DNA of 33,759 nucleotides from Spirochaetales bacterium (GTDB lineage Bacteria > Spirochaetota > Spirochaetia > SZUA-6 > JAFGRV01). Below the pieces are notes generated by a model. The model had not been told where the DNA came from, did not search any database, and saw only the letters and a program-made list of their open reading frames with translations. The DNA is taken from NCBI GenBank assembly GCA_016934975.1, contig JAFGRV010000060.1, positions 1 to 33,759 on the forward strand, in the 5' to 3' direction. Below are positions 3,572 through 16,780 of this stretch, in pieces (positions within the stretch are counted from its first letter, which is position 1; the number at the start of each line of letters is the position of its first letter). The position numbers and the translations under genes were made by a program.

Positions 3572-4420
3572 ATGGGAATCATTATAAACAAGAAAAAGAT
3601 ATTTACTTACATTGATGACAACCGGATAATAAAATTAAAAAAAGTTCTTAAATCAATCAACCTTAATACATTTATTAATAAAGAAGGGAATACACTCCTT
3701 CTCCATGGAGTGCTGAAAAACAATAAAGATATGGTAACATTATTATTGGAGTCAGGCGCTCTTCCGGACATCAGTAATAAAATTTTACAGAATAATAATT
3801 ATACATATCCCCTTCATATTGCCGCTTCCCGGAATTATCCGGAGATTGTGAAATTACTCCTTGCGTATGGCGCAAACCCGGAGGTAAAGGATATAAAAGA
3901 CCTGACACCCCTCCATCACGCTTGTAAATACGGTTCTTATCTCTGTGCCGGGGAGCTCGTAAAGGGTGGAGCAAGGGTAGATGCAACGACGATATTCAAT
4001 ACCCAGCCGTTACACTATGCTGCCGAAAAAGGATATACGACAATTGTCGAATTATTGCTTGAACATGGTGCCCCGATAAATGGCATCCCGAATGATGAGA
4101 AACCGCCTCTTTACTGGGCAATGAAAGGTCTTTGGATAGAAACAGCAAGGGTATTGATAAATCATGGAGCCATTTCGGATTTTTTAAACCTCTCCGGATT
4201 ACAAAAAGACTTTCTCTGCGGAAAAGAACCGGACTTACGGAATGAGAACCTTGATGAGATTGATGTATTCGGGCGGACTATTTTATTTTACGCAATTGCT
4301 TCGAAGGATTCCGGGTTAACCGAAAGATTGATAGAATTGGGTTGCGATAAGGAGCTTAAGGATATCTTTGAGTTCAGAGCAGAGGATTACTCTCCGTATA
4401 ATCAGTTGACTCATTTTTAA
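3572..4420 (+). CDS. Ankyrin-repeat protein
   Basis: Multiple ANK repeats: YPLHIAASRNYPEIVKLLLAYGANPEVKD, TPLHHACKYGSYLCAGELVKGGARVDA, QPLHYAAEKGYTTIVELLLEHGAPI. Confidence 0.92.
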   Translation: MGIIINKKKIFTYIDDNRIIKLKKVLKSINLNTFINKEGNTLLLHGVLKNNKDMVTLLLESGALPDISNKILQNNNYTYPLHIAASRNYPEIVKLLLAYGANPEVKDIKDLTPLHHACKYGSYLCAGELVKGGARVDATTIFNTQPLHYAAEKGYTTIVELLLEHGAPINGIPNDEKPPLYWAMKGLWIETARVLINHGAISDFLNLSGLQKDFLCGKEPDLRNENLDEIDVFGRTILFYAIASKDSGLTERLIELGCDKELKDIFEFRAEDYSPYNQLTHF

Positions 4421-4507
4421 TGATGCCCTACTATCATATAAATAATATCTCATTCTCTGTGGCTTACATACAGAGAGATTTATTTTTATTTATAAAGGAG
4501 ATTTCTT

Positions 4508-7500
4508 ATGCCACAACAAAGTGAGAATAAAAATCCAAACTATCCTGAAACAGATACTATCAAACAAATAAAAAGTGCTATTACCAGTAATTGGAAAACC
4601 GACAGGGAGCATGCCTTTTCACTCTATGAAAAACTCCTTGAACTTGAAAAAGAAAATAAAAAAGATAAACAATCCGAACATACCGAACATACTGATAAAG
4701 AATATATTATCAAATTGGCTGAAAAATACTTTGATTCCGAATCTATCGGTCCGGAACTATTGGAAACCGCTTTATCGGAAAAAGTAATTACCTATATTAA
4801 AAAACAGATTGATGCATTCCGCTGGCAGGACAATACGAAAGCTATCGCTTACGCGCAAGAAATCATCCGGATAGGAGAATACCGGGGGGATTCAAATCAG
4901 AAAGCTTTCGGACTCATGTGCCTGGGAGACAGTATGGTATTCACCGGGGACCAGCTCAAAGAAGCCTGGAAAATACAACATCAAGGCGCGAAATTGTATC
5001 TACAAACCGGGAATCTAATGGGATGGGCCTTGACAACTATCGGAAGAGTCGGCATTTGCATCGAACTTGAATGTGTTGATGAAACTCTCAAAGAGGCAAA
5101 GACGGCCCTTGAATTCTTTAAGAGATATAATCACCAGGATTATTTTGTACGCCTGTCTATAAATATAATGCGGTTATTAAATGAAATAGGACAATATGAT
5201 GAGGCACTCTCCCTATTCAATAATGCCTTTACAGTGACCACGAATCTTAAAGAAAACAAAGAAATGCATCTTTTAATCCTCTACAATAACGCGGGAATCA
5301 CCTACTGGCAAAAAGGCGAGTTTAACCGGGCCTTTGATTGCTTACTCAATGCGAAAGATTTGGCAGCTAAACTTAATAAAACAGAGAGTGTCACCGTAAT
5401 CCTGACTAATATTGCTTATATTGAGAATATGCGCGGTAATTATAACGAAGCCTTGCGGCTTACCGACTCGATTCTCTCCGGCGCTAAAACAGAAAACACT
5501 CTTTACATATTACGAACAAAAAGGATCATGGCAGATTGTTATCTAAACCTTAACAGGGATCAGGAAGCATTCGAACTGGCAAGGACGATCATCAGCGACC
5601 TGTCTTTACCCGGTAAAAAAAACCTTATCGATCTTGCCCATGCTTTCCATCTATTGGGCACAATCGAAGCAAAGAAGGGAATGTTTAAAAGTTCGGAACA
5701 GAGTTTTAAAAAAGCAAAAGATAATTTTCTCGCGTTACAATGCGACACATGGGCCTGGTATACGGAACTATTACGGGGGAAGATTTTATTAATGAGGGGA
5801 GAATATAAAAAAGCGTTAGACATCGCAGATGATTCCATCACTTTTTTTAAAAAATCAAACCAGAATATCAATCTATCCAGGGCATATCTCTTTAAAGCTG
5901 AATGTTTGATCGGGCTGCAACAATATGATGAAGCCCTGTCCACAGGCAAAACCCTTCTTAAAACTGATAAGCCGGGCAATATCTTTAGTATATATTATAA
6001 TACATATATCATGATGGGCCGGGCAGAAGAGGTGCGGGGAAATGACGAGAGCAGCAAAAGATTTTATAATAAAGCCATAGAAAAAATCGAAGGGCTCCAG
6101 CAAAATCTGACCATTACGATCCGTCCGGAATTTCTGGAAGATAAATGCGATGGAATCCATTCACTTATAAGGCTCCTCCTTGCTCATGATAACCTCACAG
6201 AAGCATATGAAACGGTTGAACGGCTAAAATCGATGACTATTCTGGGATACCTTGCCAACCGTAAAAGGCTTTACTGGTCGGAAAAAGACCCGGAATCCCG
6301 GGAGCTTATCCGGGAGCTCCGGCTTTTACGTAATGATTATAATTGTCTTTACAGATTATATCAGGAGAAACCGTCGTTACAGGATGATGATCCTGCTTTA
6401 GAAACAAAGGTAATAGAAACCAGGATTAATCATTATGAAACGAGAATGCGCGCTATTATTGAAAAACTCTATTTACTGAACGCGAAAAAAAATCGTTACA
6501 TTCCCATAGAAAAACACAGCTTAAAGGATACTCAACTCCATCTTCCCGAAAACTCTTTTTTAATTCAATACTATAGTAATGGCGAAGCTATGTGGGCATT
6601 TATTATTGAAGAAAAAACAGAGTTTGTGTACAAATTCCCCGTGACAATCAGCCATATCGGAGAACTCCTGGAAAAATATTATGATAATATTAATTACGCC
6701 CTCCAGGAAGGAATACATTCACCGATCCTCCCAAACCTTACACGACTTGCCCGCCGGTTGGGCCGGGAACTCTATAATGCACTTATACAGCCTTTTGAAC
6801 ACCTTCTCCGGGAGAATAAACAATTACTCATCGTCCCCTTTGGATTGCTTCACTATATCCCCTTTAACATACTTTATAATGGGAAAAGCTTTTTAGTCGA
6901 ACAGACCAATCTATCCATTCTTCCCTCTGCCGGGATTCTCTTTCGCCCTCATTTCTCAAAAAAACCGGGTATGGTGATACTCGCCCACGCAGGTGAAGGC
7001 GAAATCACAAATACAATCGCGGAAGCAAAAGAAATCAGCACCTTTACGGAAAGTGAACTCTATTGTAACAAAGAGGCAACCCCGGGCTGTCTTGAATCAA
7101 CACCAAAGCAAATACTTCATATCGTAGCCCACGGTAAACACAGAATCGATTACCCCGAACTTTCATACATACAGCTCGAAGACGGTTATCTCTATGCCGA
7201 TGATCTGCTGCAAAAAGAGCTTGATTATGAACTCGTCACCTTAAGCGCCTGTGAGACCGGAAAAACTATGGTGAAAAAAAGCGAAGAAATGATCGGCTTA
7301 ATCCGTGGAGTTCTTTTTGCAGGAGCACAATCAATTGTCGTAAGTATGTGGCGTATTGATGATAATATGACAGTTCAACTCATGAAATCTTTCTACCGGG
7401 CACTATTCTCAGGCAAATCAAAGGTCCTTTCTTTATGTACTGCCCAGCGGGAAATTATAGAAACCTATCCCAATCTGCATCCTGCATTCTGGGGGGCATT

Positions 7501-7549
7501 TCAGCTCATAGGACATTCGGGCCCGTTATCTCATCAACCTCTCTCATAA
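4508..7549 (+). CDS. TPR-CHAT domain protein (caspase-like HetF-associated-with-TPR protease)
   Basis: Many TPR-like helices; C-terminal CHAT with LLIVPFGLLHYIPFNIL, His motif QILHIVAHGKH and Cys motif VTLSACETGK, then VLFAGAQSIVVSMWRIDD. Confidence 0.92.
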   Translation: MPQQSENKNPNYPETDTIKQIKSAITSNWKTDREHAFSLYEKLLELEKENKKDKQSEHTEHTDKEYIIKLAEKYFDSESIGPELLETALSEKVITYIKKQIDAFRWQDNTKAIAYAQEIIRIGEYRGDSNQKAFGLMCLGDSMVFTGDQLKEAWKIQHQGAKLYLQTGNLMGWALTTIGRVGICIELECVDETLKEAKTALEFFKRYNHQDYFVRLSINIMRLLNEIGQYDEALSLFNNAFTVTTNLKENKEMHLLILYNNAGITYWQKGEFNRAFDCLLNAKDLAAKLNKTESVTVILTNIAYIENMRGNYNEALRLTDSILSGAKTENTLYILRTKRIMADCYLNLNRDQEAFELARTIISDLSLPGKKNLIDLAHAFHLLGTIEAKKGMFKSSEQSFKKAKDNFLALQCDTWAWYTELLRGKILLMRGEYKKALDIADDSITFFKKSNQNINLSRAYLFKAECLIGLQQYDEALSTGKTLLKTDKPGNIFSIYYNTYIMMGRAEEVRGNDESSKRFYNKAIEKIEGLQQNLTITIRPEFLEDKCDGIHSLIRLLLAHDNLTEAYETVERLKSMTILGYLANRKRLYWSEKDPESRELIRELRLLRNDYNCLYRLYQEKPSLQDDDPALETKVIETRINHYETRMRAIIEKLYLLNAKKNRYIPIEKHSLKDTQLHLPENSFLIQYYSNGEAMWAFIIEEKTEFVYKFPVTISHIGELLEKYYDNINYALQEGIHSPILPNLTRLARRLGRELYNALIQPFEHLLRENKQLLIVPFGLLHYIPFNILYNGKSFLVEQTNLSILPSAGILFRPHFSKKPGMVILAHAGEGEITNTIAEAKEISTFTESELYCNKEATPGCLESTPKQILHIVAHGKHRIDYPELSYIQLEDGYLYADDLLQKELDYELVTLSACETGKTMVKKSEEMIGLIRGVLFAGAQSIVVSMWRIDDNMTVQLMKSFYRALFSGKSKVLSLCTAQREIIETYPNLHPAFWGAFQLIGHSGPLSHQPLS

Positions 7550-7697
7550 TTTTTTTTACATCTCCTCTTTTTTTGTGACAAAACAATAAAAAAACAATTC
7601 ATCCTAGATGAGGAGGATTGCCTATGGAATAAACTTTATAGCGTAATATGAACATAAGGTTCATTACAAAAATTTATTAATTAAAAGGAGATGTAAT

Positions 7698-8930
7698 ATG
7701 AAAGGAATAAATATTTCGAGAATGAATGTCCTGATAGCCATGGTTTTTATTTTGTCCATGGGGATGGGATACGGACAGGTTCATATCGATCTGGGAATTC
7801 CCAATTCAATTCCCTGCTATTGCCAGGAAACTGGGTTTTGGTGCGGAGCTGCTGTGGGACAGATGATACTTCAGGGGTATCCGGGGGGCCTTGAATTCCC
7901 TAATACTCAAGCTGATGTCTGGAGCACTATCCAGCTTTATAAAAATGATCCGGGAGTTCCCTGGTTTACCGATCCCGATGGCCTTCGAGGGGCGCTCATG
8001 GATCTGGGAAGCTCCCCCGGTGTCAATTGGGTGGTCTATGCAAAACCGGACAAAACAAAACTGATGTATAGTGTGGCTTATTGGATGAATAAAAGAGAAT
8101 ATCCCGTGGCGATCCTGATAAACGATTGGGCACATTGGGTGAATATAGTTGCCATAGAGACTGATGTTGATCCCCTTACCAATACCACAGTCAACTTGCA
8201 GTGGATTAAGATATACGACCCTGCTTCACCTTGGGGTTGTCCGTCGGCTGTAAGCGGGGGTGTGACAACATCCATGACCGGGGCAGCCTGGTATAATCCG
8301 GTGAATAACTATTTAGATAATCCCGGAAATTATCCCGCGAGTAAATGGAATGGTAATTTCATCGCGGTTATTGAACCTCCGAAACAAGACGGGATTGTTC
8401 TCGCCCCTAAAATAGAAGTCGTTCAGAAGGGAAGAATCCTTCCGCCGGAAGTAATAATGGAATACACATATAAATGGATTAAAAAGTATAATTTATTCGA
8501 AGACAGAACGTATAGCAGTTTCAGGAACCTTAATCCCCTTGAACCTATTCTTGTAAACAAGTCATTCGGGGCATACTATATCGTACCTTTTGGCTTTCCC
8601 GAAGATAATATCGCCCAAGGGTCACTGATCCTCAATGCATATACCGGTGATTTCGAACAAATCGGGGCTTATAAAAAGCCGGGAACATATCTTTCCGAGA
8701 AAGAGGCTGTACGAAAGGCTTTGAATTATCTGAAGTGTGGATGTAATGCTTATGTTGAAAAAGCAGAATTGAAATACATCTATAGTTCACAATCGGCAAA
8801 TCGCTTTTCACCAGTGTGGGAAGTACAGATTTATGCTGATGATCTAATAAACGAGAATACAGACATTCTTTATGTTACCAACTTGGGAGATGTATTGGAA
8901 CATCTTACCTTCCGGACTTTTGGTGATTAA
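7698..8930 (+). CDS. Secreted C39-like (papain-fold) cysteine peptidase
   Basis: Signal peptide MNVLIAMVFILSMGMGYGQ; Q/C motif CQETGFWCGAAVGQMIL, His motif NDWAHWVNIVAI, IYDPASPWG. Confidence 0.75.
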   Translation: MKGINISRMNVLIAMVFILSMGMGYGQVHIDLGIPNSIPCYCQETGFWCGAAVGQMILQGYPGGLEFPNTQADVWSTIQLYKNDPGVPWFTDPDGLRGALMDLGSSPGVNWVVYAKPDKTKLMYSVAYWMNKREYPVAILINDWAHWVNIVAIETDVDPLTNTTVNLQWIKIYDPASPWGCPSAVSGGVTTSMTGAAWYNPVNNYLDNPGNYPASKWNGNFIAVIEPPKQDGIVLAPKIEVVQKGRILPPEVIMEYTYKWIKKYNLFEDRTYSSFRNLNPLEPILVNKSFGAYYIVPFGFPEDNIAQGSLILNAYTGDFEQIGAYKKPGTYLSEKEAVRKALNYLKCGCNAYVEKAELKYIYSSQSANRFSPVWEVQIYADDLINENTDILYVTNLGDVLEHLTFRTFGD

Positions 8931-8999
8931 ACTTTTCATTTTATATACTGACAATTTTATAAATCCCTGATTACTATCAGGACAGTATAATCCCTTAAA

Positions 9000-9040
9000 T
9001 CAGCCTGTTATATTTTTCATAACAGGCTGAACTTTTGTTT
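9000..9040 (+). terminator. Intrinsic terminator after the C39-like gene
   Basis: TCAGCCTGTTAT (9000-9011) / ATAACAGGCTGA (9019-9030) followed by ACTTTTGTTTT. Confidence 0.85.
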
Positions 9041-9173
9041 TACTATTGCTATCCCGGACTTAATTCGGATACTGCAATTTTTATTGCCACAACCGCATAG
9101 AGAACAAAGTTATGTCCGGGGTAATAATGGAATAATTTATTTTTATTTTTAAATGTGCCGGTTGGATAGGGGA

Positions 9174-9812
9174 TTATTCATCAACCTTGCATTGAAATGA
9201 GAGAAAAGTCCCGGTCTTATTCGAGAGGCGTATAATGACGGGGACGAGTTCTTTAATAGTACTCCGGAATGAACAGAGGGTATCGATTTGTTGTGTTGTG
9301 ATAAGTTTATTGCTCTGCCAGATTTCAAGCAAAGAATTAATCATCATTTCCTCGTGGGATTCATCCGGAATAAATTGGCCCTTAAACGTAAAACCATCAT
9401 CTTTCTGAATAATGCTGTAATACATATCAATATATTCATTTTCTTTATACTTTATTTTTAATTTTCTATTTTTCTCTTTTGTTCCTCCGGTACCACGGAC
9501 TGCTGTTTTTAATTCCGGGGCAATATATTGAACGTCATTACGGGGAAACGGAATTATTTTTTTTAAAACTTCCGAGGTTTGGAGATTGGATTTAGTGTTG
9601 GTGATATCACCTTCCACGAATTCTTTCAGATCTTCCAGTTCTTCCCTGCACCAAGGGCAGGTCTTCAGATGGCTTTCTATCTCTTCTTTTAGATTATCGG
9701 GAAGGAGATTAAAATGGAAATCTCCCAAGTCCGAAGAAGTGGGACAATCAAAACGGTATAACTGTGACGTTAATCTTTTTTCGAAGTCATCTATTTCGTC
9801 TGATCCCGGCAT
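9174..9812 (-). CDS. Zinc-binding anti-sigma-like protein (zf-HC2/ZAS), apparently soluble
   Basis: HLKTCPWC matches HX3CX2C; adjacent to sigma-like gene; no obvious hydrophobic transmembrane segment in the translation. Confidence 0.75.
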   Translation of the reverse strand: MPGSDEIDDFEKRLTSQLYRFDCPTSSDLGDFHFNLLPDNLKEEIESHLKTCPWCREELEDLKEFVEGDITNTKSNLQTSEVLKKIIPFPRNDVQYIAPELKTAVRGTGGTKEKNRKLKIKYKENEYIDMYYSIIQKDDGFTFKGQFIPDESHEEMMINSLLEIWQSNKLITTQQIDTLCSFRSTIKELVPVIIRLSNKTGTFLSFQCKVDE

Positions 9813-9853
9813 ATGCTTTTATTCCTTTCCTATAATATACAGCGTTTTAACAG

Positions 9854-9892
9854 CATAGTATAGCCTTTGTTTTCAAAGAAGGCTGCACTATG
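9854..9892. promoter_or_regulatory. Long hairpin in the sigma/anti-sigma intergenic gap
   Basis: CATAGT-at-AGCC...GGCT-gc-ACTATG, with an inner TTTG/CAAA pairing; 42 bp upstream of the anti-sigma ATG. Confidence 0.5.
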
Positions 9893-9956
9893 ACCTTAAC
9901 GTAACTGTCACTATAATAAATGCATTACATACCCAATTCGTCACAACTTTTACTAG

Positions 9957-10631
9957 TTAAGTAACGATTTCCTTTAAGAGATCCAGAAGTTTTTCATCTT
10001 TTCTTAAAATCCGCTTTATTTTTTGTTGATTTACACGGACATCATTCGTTTCCTTCCAGATTTCCGGAAATTCCTTTACAATAGTCCTTGGTTTCATATC
10101 ACTGACAAAGAGCAGCCGTGATAAAAGCAGATCTTTGGATTCGGGTAAAATTACTTTCATATGATTCCATAATTCCTTTACGATAATCTGCTTCTCGTAA
10201 TTCGGCTCACATGCAAGATCGGAGACATCCTCCAAATCAATCATTTTTCGTTCATTTTTTCGCCTTTCCGTAAGCAGAACAGTGTGGACACATTTACGCC
10301 AATACGCCAGAAGTGCACCTAGTGAACTAAAATTTGAAAAGGGGTACCGCCGCAAAGCAAAAATGAACTGACTCATGCTGTCCATCACTATTCCATCCAC
10401 CTCCAGGTTAAGTTCGTTGAAATATGAATGATTTTTTACCCAATATAATACAAGGGGCTTATAAATATTATAAATAATTCCAACGGAAATATCACATTTT
10501 TCCTCAAAGGCCCTGCGAAACAACTCATAACAATACCTGGTTGTATGCTCCTCACCCTTGTGGAAATTCTGTGTCTGTTCCCGGCATTTTTCTTTTAATT
10601 CTTTTAGACTTAATTCTTTTAGGGGATCCAT
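9957..10631 (-). CDS. Divergent ECF-like sigma factor
   Basis: Sigma-70 region 2-like segment IYKPLVLYWVKNHSYF...DGIVMDSMSQFIFALRRYPFSNFSSLGALLAYWRKCVHTVLLTERRKNER; paired with an HX3CX2C protein. Confidence 0.65.
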   Translation of the reverse strand: MDPLKELSLKELKEKCREQTQNFHKGEEHTTRYCYELFRRAFEEKCDISVGIIYNIYKPLVLYWVKNHSYFNELNLEVDGIVMDSMSQFIFALRRYPFSNFSSLGALLAYWRKCVHTVLLTERRKNERKMIDLEDVSDLACEPNYEKQIIVKELWNHMKVILPESKDLLLSRLLFVSDMKPRTIVKEFPEIWKETNDVRVNQQKIKRILRKDEKLLDLLKEIVT

Positions 10632-10990
10632 ATAGTATTGAACCTAACAATTTATTTACTCCCAATTAATTGGTTTTCCCTGTCCAACGAACCATCAGTT
10701 TTGATTTTTTCCTTCAGATATAAAGAAATTGAAAACCACTTTTATCAGGAAATACCGAAAAAACAAATGTTTTCCGGTATAGTTATTGTTTACTGGTCTG
10801 CCTTACCGTTAGAAACTCCATATATTTTTATTTCTTAGCAAAAAAAAACACAGCAAACCATTATAATCGGAAATACTGACAATACATCATTTGTCAGTTT
10901 TAAATAGCGTACAGTATATGAAAACCATATTTTCTTAATTTTGTCAACATATAAAGTTTATCTGTTATTATACTCACCTGTTAAAAAGGA

Positions 10991-11085
10991 ATTGTCCGGA
11001 AAGATGGCCAAAAGATCACCTGCAAAGTCCGTTCATTGAACGGCGGTGGCTTTCTTTTGCTCATAATTTAAACTTTCCGGACAAT
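10991..11085 (-). terminator. Probable terminator of the subtilase gene, its loop expanded by an inserted repeat
   Basis: 13-bp perfect arms ATTGTCCGGAAAG (10991-11003) / CTTTCCGGACAAT (11073-11085); on the minus strand the distal arm is followed by TCCTTTTTAA. Confidence 0.6.
11010..11059 (+). repeat. 50-nt dispersed dyad repeat, copy 1
   Basis: AAAAGATCACCTGCAAAGTCCGTTCATTGAACGGCGGTGGCTTTCTTTTG; 48/50 identical to the reverse complement of 33701-33750. Confidence 0.9.
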
Positions 11086-11122
11086 CCGTTAATTAAATAT
11101 GCTTGTTTTAAAGTAAATTTTG

Positions 11123-12829
11123 TTATAGTCCCTGCTTAACCGGAAGAACATCAAATCCCCCGGATGCTGTAGACGAAGACCTTAAGGTGAGTATTGCCCC
11201 GGGAATACTTTCACCTTGGGATAAAAGTGCTGCCACGGCTCCGGAAACCATACCGGTCGCAAAGGAACTTCCGGACCATATACCCCAACCGGATGTATTG
11301 GCATCCGTTGAATCGGTATAGGGACTGCTTAAATAAATACTCAAGATACCGTCGGTTGTTATTTTACTTGAATTAACTTCGCCCCCAAAGGCCAGGAATC
11401 CACCGGTACCTGGTTCGTTGGAAAAACTGGATATCTTTCCATTCCGCTGAGTGGATCCCACACCAATAACGTCCTTAAACCGGGCAGGGTATCCCGCATC
11501 ATGGTGGTCCCGGATTTTACTATCATTTCCGGCTGCTGCAATCACGACGCCATTATGATTCTTTATCAATTCTACGGCATCAAAGAGGAGTGTAAGAAAA
11601 AGTTCCGGCTTTTGCAGACCGTATATCATTTTTATTCTTATATCGGTTATTTCTTCGTTATATTTATTCTCTTTGTCGGGGAACCTGAGTTTCGTAGTGA
11701 GACTTGTGTTAACCACAAAGGGATTGTCATTATCAACCTGATCTAAAACCTCCTGAAAACCCCATAAGAGTGAATCCAGAGTTCCTGCGGCATAGTGGTT
11801 CATGACTTCGATAAGATGCAGACGCGAATCAGGGGAAAGAAGGTTAATTATTCCGGCGATAAAAGTACCATGGTCCGAAAGATTTCGATTTCCATAGTTT
11901 TCATTCAGATAGGTGTTAAAATCGGGATCAAGGCATCCATTGTATTGAATGGAATGCTCGGTACCTATTAATGAAAATATATTCTTAATAACTTTGTTTT
12001 TATTATAAAAGACATATCCTTCAAATAAGGCTGTTATTTCAGGTAACGTATCCAGAATATAAACATCTATTTTTTCTTTAGACGGTAACCGTGTCTTAAT
12101 AATTTCCTTTGGAAACTCGAATGCCGGTAAAATCGGAGAAGCCAAACCGGAAATCCCCGAAGCATCGATAGCATAATCTGCTTCTGTAACCGGATCCTTC
12201 GGTTTTATGGGCAATCCAGCGGGAGCTCCGGTAGTCATACCACTCATGAACTGGCCCACCATCATCCAGTTAACCGATACACCCTTTAATGTATATTCTT
12301 TATCCTTCAGATAAAACGGACCTTCCGCTGTCATCCCGAGGGAAAATACCATGAGCATAAAGTCTGTTTCTTCGGCAGTTAAATTAAGTCCCGATCTATT
12401 TACGGATATCGTTGCAAAAGAATTATTTTCTTTTGCCTTAATCTCATAATACTGCTCAGGATTAATTTGAATAGAACCGAATAATTTATCTTTATTTCTG
12501 TCCAACCATTGGACAGCCCTGTCGATATCCTGGGTCAACTTATACCTGTCACCATCCAGGAGTAATCCCTGTAATGTATGAGATAAAATTCCGTATTTGA
12601 AATTCGAGAAGAAGACGGCGAGTTCATTCGAAAGCGCTCTTAATTCTTCTTTGGTGATGTCACTGTCCCTCCCGGCATAAGTGAACTCGACAACAATATC
12701 CCGGGTAAAAATACGGATATCCTCGCCATCCTGATACGCCTGTTGCCCGTAAGCCGGACAAAAGCCTATACACAAAAATAGTATGATTCCTAATAAAAAA
12801 AGCCGTGTTTTAATTACTTCCCCTATCAT
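11123..12829 (-). CDS. Secreted S8 (subtilisin-like) serine protease
   Basis: Signal peptide; Asp motif VYILDTLPE, His motif DHGTFIAGII, oxyanion AAAGND, Ser motif SGSSFATGMVSGAVAALL. Confidence 0.9.
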   Translation of the reverse strand: MIGEVIKTRLFLLGIILFLCIGFCPAYGQQAYQDGEDIRIFTRDIVVEFTYAGRDSDITKEELRALSNELAVFFSNFKYGILSHTLQGLLLDGDRYKLTQDIDRAVQWLDRNKDKLFGSIQINPEQYYEIKAKENNSFATISVNRSGLNLTAEETDFMLMVFSLGMTAEGPFYLKDKEYTLKGVSVNWMMVGQFMSGMTTGAPAGLPIKPKDPVTEADYAIDASGISGLASPILPAFEFPKEIIKTRLPSKEKIDVYILDTLPEITALFEGYVFYNKNKVIKNIFSLIGTEHSIQYNGCLDPDFNTYLNENYGNRNLSDHGTFIAGIINLLSPDSRLHLIEVMNHYAAGTLDSLLWGFQEVLDQVDNDNPFVVNTSLTTKLRFPDKENKYNEEITDIRIKMIYGLQKPELFLTLLFDAVELIKNHNGVVIAAAGNDSKIRDHHDAGYPARFKDVIGVGSTQRNGKISSFSNEPGTGGFLAFGGEVNSSKITTDGILSIYLSSPYTDSTDANTSGWGIWSGSSFATGMVSGAVAALLSQGESIPGAILTLRSSSTASGGFDVLPVKQGL

Positions 12830-12906
12830 ATTTTCCTCCTATAAACTATTAAATTCTAAACCTGTTTAATTCTTTCTTCTTCTATAAAGATTATTAAAAG
12901 AATAAA

Positions 12907-12968
12907 GGTGACTACTGTCACCAACTTAAGGTGACTACTGTCACCAACTTAAGGTGACTACAGTCACC
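12907..12968. promoter_or_regulatory. Three tandem palindromic operator-like repeats
   Basis: GGTGACTACTGTCACC (12907-12922, 12930-12945) and GGTGACTACAGTCACC (12953-12968), 23-bp period with AACTTAA spacer, 78-139 bp upstream of the subtilase start. Confidence 0.85.
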
Positions 12969-13418
12969 AATTGGCCGCAAAAACAATACACCCCTCCTTT
13001 TGAAATAAATGATATGCAAACCTTTATTGTCACAGATTTTTCTTTATTATTGATATGTTTGACAACCCTCATCGGGAATTACGCATAACAGACTGGTGAC
13101 GCTATTCCTGGTGAGATTGTTAATCAATTTCATTATTGTTACCGGAAAACCCTAAGATTCTTTTTTTATTCTGCCTTTAACCGCTCTAAACAAGCATGTT
13201 CTATTGTATTATATACAGCACTTATGTTAATTAATCCAATATATCATTCATTTTTTTAAATATTTTTTTATAAACCCGGTTCTGCTGTTTTTTTATTCAC
13301 CTTCATTCACACTATGGAAAAAACAGGGATCCGGATATGTCGTCCGAAGCTTTTCAAGCTGACTCGTTAAATACCCCTTAAAAATCATCCGCCTTTTATA
13401 CGAAAATCACCGGAAGTC

Positions 13419-15740: not shown

Positions 15741-15895
15741 TATATCCTTTTTGGATTATTTAAAGAAGAGTTTGAGATAGAAAAGAGATTGGCTTAGGTG
15801 TTCTTTTACACGGAGTATTGTTATTTGTGAGAGGAAAGATAGGACCCGGACAATTTCACCTTCACTTTTACATCATAACATTGTATAATTATTAT

Positions 15896-16780
15896 ATGGG
15901 TAAATATGATAATGCCTATAAATACATTTTCTCGAATAAACGTATTTTTTATCAACTGGTAACATCCTTTGTAAAAGAAGATTTTGTGAAAGAGATTATT
16001 CTTGAAAATATGGAGCATCTGGATAAAAGTTTTATATCTGATGAATTTCTGGCAAGAGAATCTGATATTATATACAGAATAGAACTCAAAGATACGGAAG
16101 TGTATATCTATATTTTATTAGAGTTCCAGTCCACAGTAGATAAAACGATTCCCATACGTATGTTACTTTACATCCTACAATTTTATGATTTGTTATTAAG
16201 GAATTCACAAAGTGGACTATTGCCTGCTGTTTTTCCATTACTTTTATATAATGGACAGGCTGATTGGACAATTCCCGGTAATGTCCGTGAATTAATCGAT
16301 AAACGAATATCCGAGAGATATATTCCGAGTTTTGAGTATTATAAAATTATAGAAAAAGATATTCCCGATGAAACACTGGAAAAACTTAATAATCTAGTCT
16401 CTGCAATTATTTATCTTGAAAAACGAAAAGACCAAAAAGGACTCAGAGATACTATCGATAAAGTAGTAGAAATGATAAAGCAGGAAAATATTATTGATGT
16501 GAGAATGTTCACAATCTGGTTTAAACGTATGTTTCGTCAGAAGGCGGATTTTGAACAAGTTGATAAAATTAATGATGTGATGGAGGTTAAAAATATGTTA
16601 ACAACAATAGCAGATCAAATAAAATTAGAAGGCAAGATAGAAGGCAAAATGGAAGGCAAAATGGAAGGCAAAATGGAAGGTACTCTTGAATTCGCCAAAA
16701 AAATGAAGGATAAAGGGTATCCTCTTGAAGAAATTACGGAAATCACAGGTTTATCAAAAGAAGTGATAGAAAAATTATAA
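15896..16780 (+). CDS. Rpn/PD-(D/E)XK nuclease family transposase-like protein
   Basis: MGKYDNAYKYIFSNKRIFYQLVTSFV N-terminus, SDIIYRIELKDTEVYIYILLEFQS core, KxExKMEGKMEGKMEG C-terminal repeats; start set at ATG 15896. Confidence 0.85.
   Translation: MGKYDNAYKYIFSNKRIFYQLVTSFVKEDFVKEIILENMEHLDKSFISDEFLARESDIIYRIELKDTEVYIYILLEFQSTVDKTIPIRMLLYILQFYDLLLRNSQSGLLPAVFPLLLYNGQADWTIPGNVRELIDKRISERYIPSFEYYKIIEKDIPDETLEKLNNLVSAIIYLEKRKDQKGLRDTIDKVVEMIKQENIIDVRMFTIWFKRMFRQKADFEQVDKINDVMEVKNMLTTIADQIKLEGKIEGKMEGKMEGKMEGTLEFAKKMKDKGYPLEEITEITGLSKEVIEKL
16627..16682 (+). repeat. In-frame 12-bp tandem repeat (GAAGGCAAAATG units)
   Basis: Encodes EGKIEGKMEGKMEGKMEG. Confidence 0.9.

Follow-up and report, generated by a model that had tools for sequence, protein, structure and literature searches.

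A sigma factor-like protein, a soluble zinc anti-sigma, a TPR-CHAT protease and an S8 subtilase form a recurrent gene cassette in a spirochaete family and in Chloroflexota: a candidate CRISPR-free proteolytic switch

In the type III-E CRISPR system Craspase/CASP, the protease Csx29 cleaves Csx30, the inhibitor of the ECF-like factor CASP-sigma (PMC10028731). Craspase orthologues cut at non-conserved sites, namely between L and D, M and K, or A and S (PMC11106740). The gene cassette described here bears on the origin of the sigma-switching TPR-CHAT arm of Craspase. Among the anti-sigma factors relevant for comparison, RsiW, RseA and RslA are membrane proteins.

The window, i.e., the whole stretch of DNA that was analysed, spans one entire contig of 33.8 kb from a 6.8-Mb spirochaete assembly, whose closest named relatives are Spirochaetales MAGs. 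An earlier note on this DNA had described a 9-kb block of genes as a candidate protease/regulator module. The open reading frames on which it relied were found in place (Table 1) and the named genes are all present, but the module is only part of the block. Its conserved core consists of four genes, which code for a sigma-like protein, a soluble zinc anti-sigma, a TPR-CHAT protein and an S8 subtilase. The block was correctly described as two opposite-strand halves meeting tail to tail, and a terminator-like hairpin was found between them. The search of Rfam gave no match in the window. A gene for a YhgA-like transposase/nuclease (PF04754) is located at 15818-16780, two genes from the S8 gene.

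Table 1. Positions of the genes and DNA elements in the window
Feature	Position	Strand	Basis
Ankyrin-repeat protein, neighbour outside the conserved module	3572..4420	+	PF12796, E=1e-38
TPR-CHAT caspase-like protease (predicted), 1013 aa	4508..7549	+	Pfam CHAT, TPR_12
Secreted neighbour outside the module, with papain-like (C39-like) Cys/His motifs	7698..8930	+	
Terminator-like hairpin, 12-bp stem	9000..9030	.	Between the convergent halves
Soluble ZAS-type (zf-HC2) anti-sigma, 212 aa	9174..9812	-	zf-HC2, AlphaFold model, KD scan
Candidate cleavage site Arg106-Gly107 (AVRG) in the anti-sigma linker	9492..9497	-	Invariant, 16/16
Sigma factor (predicted), ECF-like Pfam-negative family, 224 aa	9957..10631	-	AlphaFold fold matches; 16-member family
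S8 subtilase, 568 aa, signal peptide	11123..12829	-	Pfam S8; hydrophobic N-terminus
Three direct repeats of 23 bp, with a 16-bp palindrome in each, GGTGACTAC(T/A)GTCACC	12905..12973	.	

The Pfam search of the TPR-CHAT protein of the window identified the CHAT domain (PF12770, E=1.5e-50) and TPR_12 (E=7.5e-19). The His/Cys motif seen previously corresponds to the predicted catalytic dyad, His875 (7130-7132) and Cys915 (7250-7252), both invariant across 17 relatives, and its presence in a CHAT domain indicates membership of clan CD. The KD scan revealed no signal peptide or transmembrane segment, which points to a cytosolic protein. Csx29 was one of the two NCBIfam families matching most TPR-CHAT members (13/17) and gave the best E-value of all the families (3e-18), with scores far below the cut-off of 300 bits set for that family. 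The window protein itself had no match to the Csx29 family. Csx29 chains from the PDB matched the CHAT domain with an E-value of about 5e-8. These matches suggest that the TPR-CHAT protein is remotely akin to the Csx29 of Craspase.

The sigma-like protein gave no Pfam match above the threshold and no PDB sequence match. The AlphaFold model built from the 16-member alignment (mean pLDDT 86) was compared with the PDB using Foldseek. The fold matches were almost all sigma factors, including those of the sigmaE/RseA and SigW/RsiW complexes, with modest single E-values (0.03-0.5), so that the assignment as a sigma factor, already made in the earlier note, rests on the consistency of the predicted-fold matches.

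The other half of the pair, the anti-sigma, matched zf-HC2 with E=2.5e-4, just under the curated cut-off, and 13 of the 16 members of its family matched this domain as well. The residues C23, H48, C52 and C55 are invariant in the 16-member alignment, and the family profile reaches RsiW at E=0.0023; the HX3CX2C motif noted before thus belongs to a predicted zinc site, C...HX3CX2C, adjoining the sigma gene, as in ZAS proteins. The KD scan detected no membrane segment, indicating a soluble protein. The AlphaFold model consists of a zinc domain (26-67), a disordered linker predicted with low confidence and a C-terminal beta-sandwich (115-208). Residues 102-110 of the linker have a pLDDT <50, and R106-G107 are the sole invariant linker residues in the alignment.

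The linker Arg was found in all 30 anti-sigmas adjoining a CHAT gene, mostly in an LRG-like context; one Chloroflexota subgroup has QR or VRD instead. Linker RG is also present in certain anti-sigmas without a visible CHAT gene (L104, L106, L108 and probably more), and for this reason the idea that Arg-Gly marks CHAT-linked anti-sigmas exclusively was rejected. Several anti-sigmas at CHAT-less loci are short and lack both the linker and the sandwich. The link between the linker Arg and CHAT is thus a tendency and not a rule. The cut sites of the known Craspases are not conserved (PMC11106740), so that enzymes of this type do not need an invariant site, and the Arg-Gly pair could also be a docking motif rather than a cut site. 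At one further locus (L118:8815-10281), sigma and anti-sigma are encoded as one 488-aa ORF adjoining the CHAT gene.

The subtilase of the window matched PF00082 (E=1.7e-20). The Asp/His/Ser motif recognised earlier corresponds to Asp260 (12050-12052), His320 (11870-11872) and Ser522 (11264-11266), which together with Asn435 are invariant in 13 S8 relatives, giving a predicted S8 triad with its oxyanion Asn. The operator-like array reported earlier is indeed present, 76-144 bp upstream of the S8 start, and is probably a local regulator-binding array. With up to one mismatch allowed, its palindrome has only one further site (C646) in the whole 6.8-Mb assembly. No clustered copies were found in the four family relatives, and a single-mismatch site was seen once, in G002. 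The array is private to the window genome and was rejected as a conserved signature of the sigma factor or the module. The search for a shared bipartite promoter upstream of the S8, sigma and CHAT genes in the spirochaetes revealed none above shuffles. Between the S8 and sigma genes there is also a 13-bp inverted repeat (ATTGTCCGGAAAG; 10991-11003 and 11073-11085, ~70 bp apart), which may be an attenuator, a terminator or a small mobile element.

The orthologues of the sigma factor and of the full-length TPR-CHAT occurred in the same 4 of 61 genomes, those of the window organism and of three relatives. As all four belong to one family, this co-distribution does not represent four independent events. 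The tail-to-tail order is kept in two of the three relatives. In a relative from another genus (G002), S8, sigma and anti-sigma lie tail to tail with CHAT and all four genes are linked, as in the window. In G001, the sigma/anti-sigma pair and CHAT meet tail to tail where a contig begins, and the S8 gene lies on another contig, stopping about 320 bp short of its end; an end overlap between these two contigs was sought and not found. In the third relative (G004), CHAT, sigma/anti-sigma and S8 are scattered over three contigs, yet all are present. The fifth family member (G003) has neither the sigma nor the CHAT orthologue.

With the CHAT alignment as query, 84,980 species genomes were scanned and yielded 20 loci, 16 of which encode long TPR-CHAT relatives. 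These come nearly all from Chloroflexota-type MAGs and show 26-36% identity. All four cassette genes lie side by side in 11 of the 16 full-length loci, in three orientations. As for the remaining five, the S8 gene is cut by a contig end in one, two are truncated by contig ends, and two have no sigma/anti-sigma pair. Gene content of the cassette is constant while gene order differs, and pairwise distances correlate between the cassette families (rho 0.67-0.88).

The sigma family was then used as bait and matched 74 of 301 Chloroflexota genomes. For the neighbourhood analysis, 40 Chloroflexota sigma loci were sampled across the score range, and 20 stretches served as controls. TPR-CHAT adjoined sigma at 15 of the 40 loci, with S8 present too in three, and neither CHAT nor S8 was seen in any control (0/20). 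Sigma, anti-sigma and TPR-CHAT therefore make up the wider core, and S8 marks certain branches. In one Chloroflexota subgroup (L125, L126, L132, L133 and L139), S8 is missing and an amidohydrolase-like gene follows CHAT; a tricorn-like beta-propeller gene is nearby in four of these five loci.

No gRAMP/Cas7-11 gene or CRISPR array was recognised beside the spirochaete or Chloroflexota loci, and array-like repeats were found at no CHAT-positive locus. Near one CHAT-less sigma locus (L140, about 2394), at least 11 repeat copies are set at array-like spacing and may be a CRISPR array or another repeat. On plasmids, neither a full-length CHAT gene nor a match to sigma was found, and no viral contig turned up. 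The search of PADLOC for a known defence family gave nothing informative beyond generic models of TPR and subtilase, and neither PADLOC nor NCBIfam has a family covering the four-gene set.

The earlier note had raised the idea that the CHAT protease cleaves a partner such as the anti-sigma. This is the best-supported mechanism, although the cleavage itself is inferred, and we lean towards it: the cassette would be a cytosolic proteolytic switch for transcription in which TPR-CHAT cuts the anti-sigma and frees sigma independently of CRISPR. The soluble zinc anti-sigma would keep the sigma factor inactive. TPR-CHAT would be sensor and protease in one, its TPR part binding a trigger or partner and thereby activating the caspase-like domain. 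The cut would most likely fall at the invariant Arg-Gly pair of the disordered linker and part the zinc domain from the beta-sandwich, with the loss of the sigma-binding piece. The freed sigma would then drive its regulon, to which its own operon and the S8 subtilase within it probably belong; the earlier note had supposed that sigma drives the secreted proteases. Because the anti-sigma has no membrane segment, a cytosolic CHAT protease can reach it. Csx29 cuts the CASP-sigma inhibitor (PMC10028731), and the cassette is most simply read as following this logic without CRISPR genes.

The direction of control may also be reversed, with CHAT and S8 as the outputs. The ECF/ZAS pair would sense a cytosolic signal through the beta-sandwich or the zinc site, and sigma would induce both proteases as effectors, which might serve, for instance, in cell death or protein turnover. 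Direct sensing is common among ZAS anti-sigmas, as in the RsrA-type factors. Furthermore, CHAT and S8 often form one transcription unit downstream of sigma/anti-sigma, and related sigma genes have no visible CHAT at 25 of the 40 loci. However, this explanation leaves the invariant Arg-Gly of the disordered linker unaccounted for, and in Craspase a like protease acts on a sigma inhibitor. We regard it as possible, if doubtful.

It is unlikely that the S8 subtilase cleaves the anti-sigma or activates CHAT, with CHAT having another substrate. S8 is adjacent at most of the close loci, and the KD scan found no export signal in most Chloroflexota S8 proteins, which would allow such a role there; yet all four spirochaete S8 proteins carry one, as opposed to a cytosolic anti-sigma, and many Chloroflexota sigma/anti-sigma/CHAT loci have no S8 at all. 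Because of its export signal, S8 of the window organism is a poor candidate for the anti-sigma protease and a plausible output of the switch.

A chance or hitch-hiking neighbourhood with no joint function would agree with the opposite strands of the two halves of the window and with the unlinked genes of G004. We consider it very improbable, as the adjacency recurs in two phyla and three gene orders but not in the controls, and the genes are present together even where they are unlinked.

When co-localisation was followed across distant taxa, as the earlier note had suggested, it held for CHAT, sigma, anti-sigma and S8 and failed for the two other genes of the proposed module. The ankyrin gene is present as described. 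In the C39-like protein, only the Cys/His motif and a signal peptide can be made out, and its label has no profile support, with no match in Pfam, NCBIfam or the PDB. Although the ankyrin, CHAT and C39-like genes are co-directional with short gaps, a functional unit of the whole 9-kb block is scarcely credible, as neither the ankyrin nor the C39-like gene occurs at any of the related loci examined and the C39-like protein has no homologue among 20 relatives; both were rejected as module parts as unconserved.

Within Spirochaetota, the sigma family was seen only in the window's own family, and none was found in 339 cyanobacterial and 398 Pseudomonadota genomes, sets that had no internal positive control. 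In the tree, the spirochaete sequences form one starred clade beside a Chloroflexota sequence. The restriction to one spirochaete family and this single clade are consistent with transfer between phyla in one direction or the other. One possibility, though not the likelier one, is that a stand-alone pathway of caspase-like protease, anti-sigma and sigma is widespread in Chloroflexota and entered one spirochaete family. It would be a CRISPR-free relative of the transcriptional arm that type III-E CRISPR later combined with an RNA-guided complex, and might even be the source of that arm. Such a cassette, with its candidate cleavage site, would give CHAT proteases outside CRISPR systems a definite substrate and provide a possible ancestor of the transcriptional arm of Craspase. 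It is small enough to be rebuilt in E. coli with a reporter.

In our incomplete coverage of the literature, we found no description of the cassette, and CHAT appeared with sigma/anti-sigma only in CRISPR-linked systems. The cassette resembles SAVED-CHAT of type III-B CRISPR and CBASS (PMC11229360) in having a CHAT protease that could start a proteolytic cascade; the SAVED sensor and cyclic-nucleotide trigger of that system are replaced here by TPR and a ZAS/ECF pair. The type III CRISPR system CalpL-CalpT-CalpS (PMC11229360) shares the proposed logic, as an anti-sigma cut by a protease frees sigma, but it uses a Lon-family protease with a SAVED sensor and has no CHAT, TPR or S8. With SigW-RsiW, sigmaE-RseA and RslA, the cassette shares the zinc anti-sigma domain and, as predicted, the ECF-like sigma fold; unlike theirs, its anti-sigma is soluble and adjoins a cytosolic caspase-like protease. 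Craspase/CASP likewise has genes for a TPR-CHAT protease, an inhibitor of sigma and an ECF-like sigma factor together, and the CHAT domain with its flank remotely matches Csx29. In contrast to Craspase, no gRAMP/Cas7-11, Csx31 or CRISPR array was found at the cassette loci, and the predicted inhibitor differs from Csx30 in being a zinc protein of the ZAS type (about 190-400 aa) that has a beta-sandwich. The cassette also adds S8 and carries an invariant linker Arg-Gly, as opposed to the variable cut sites of Craspase.
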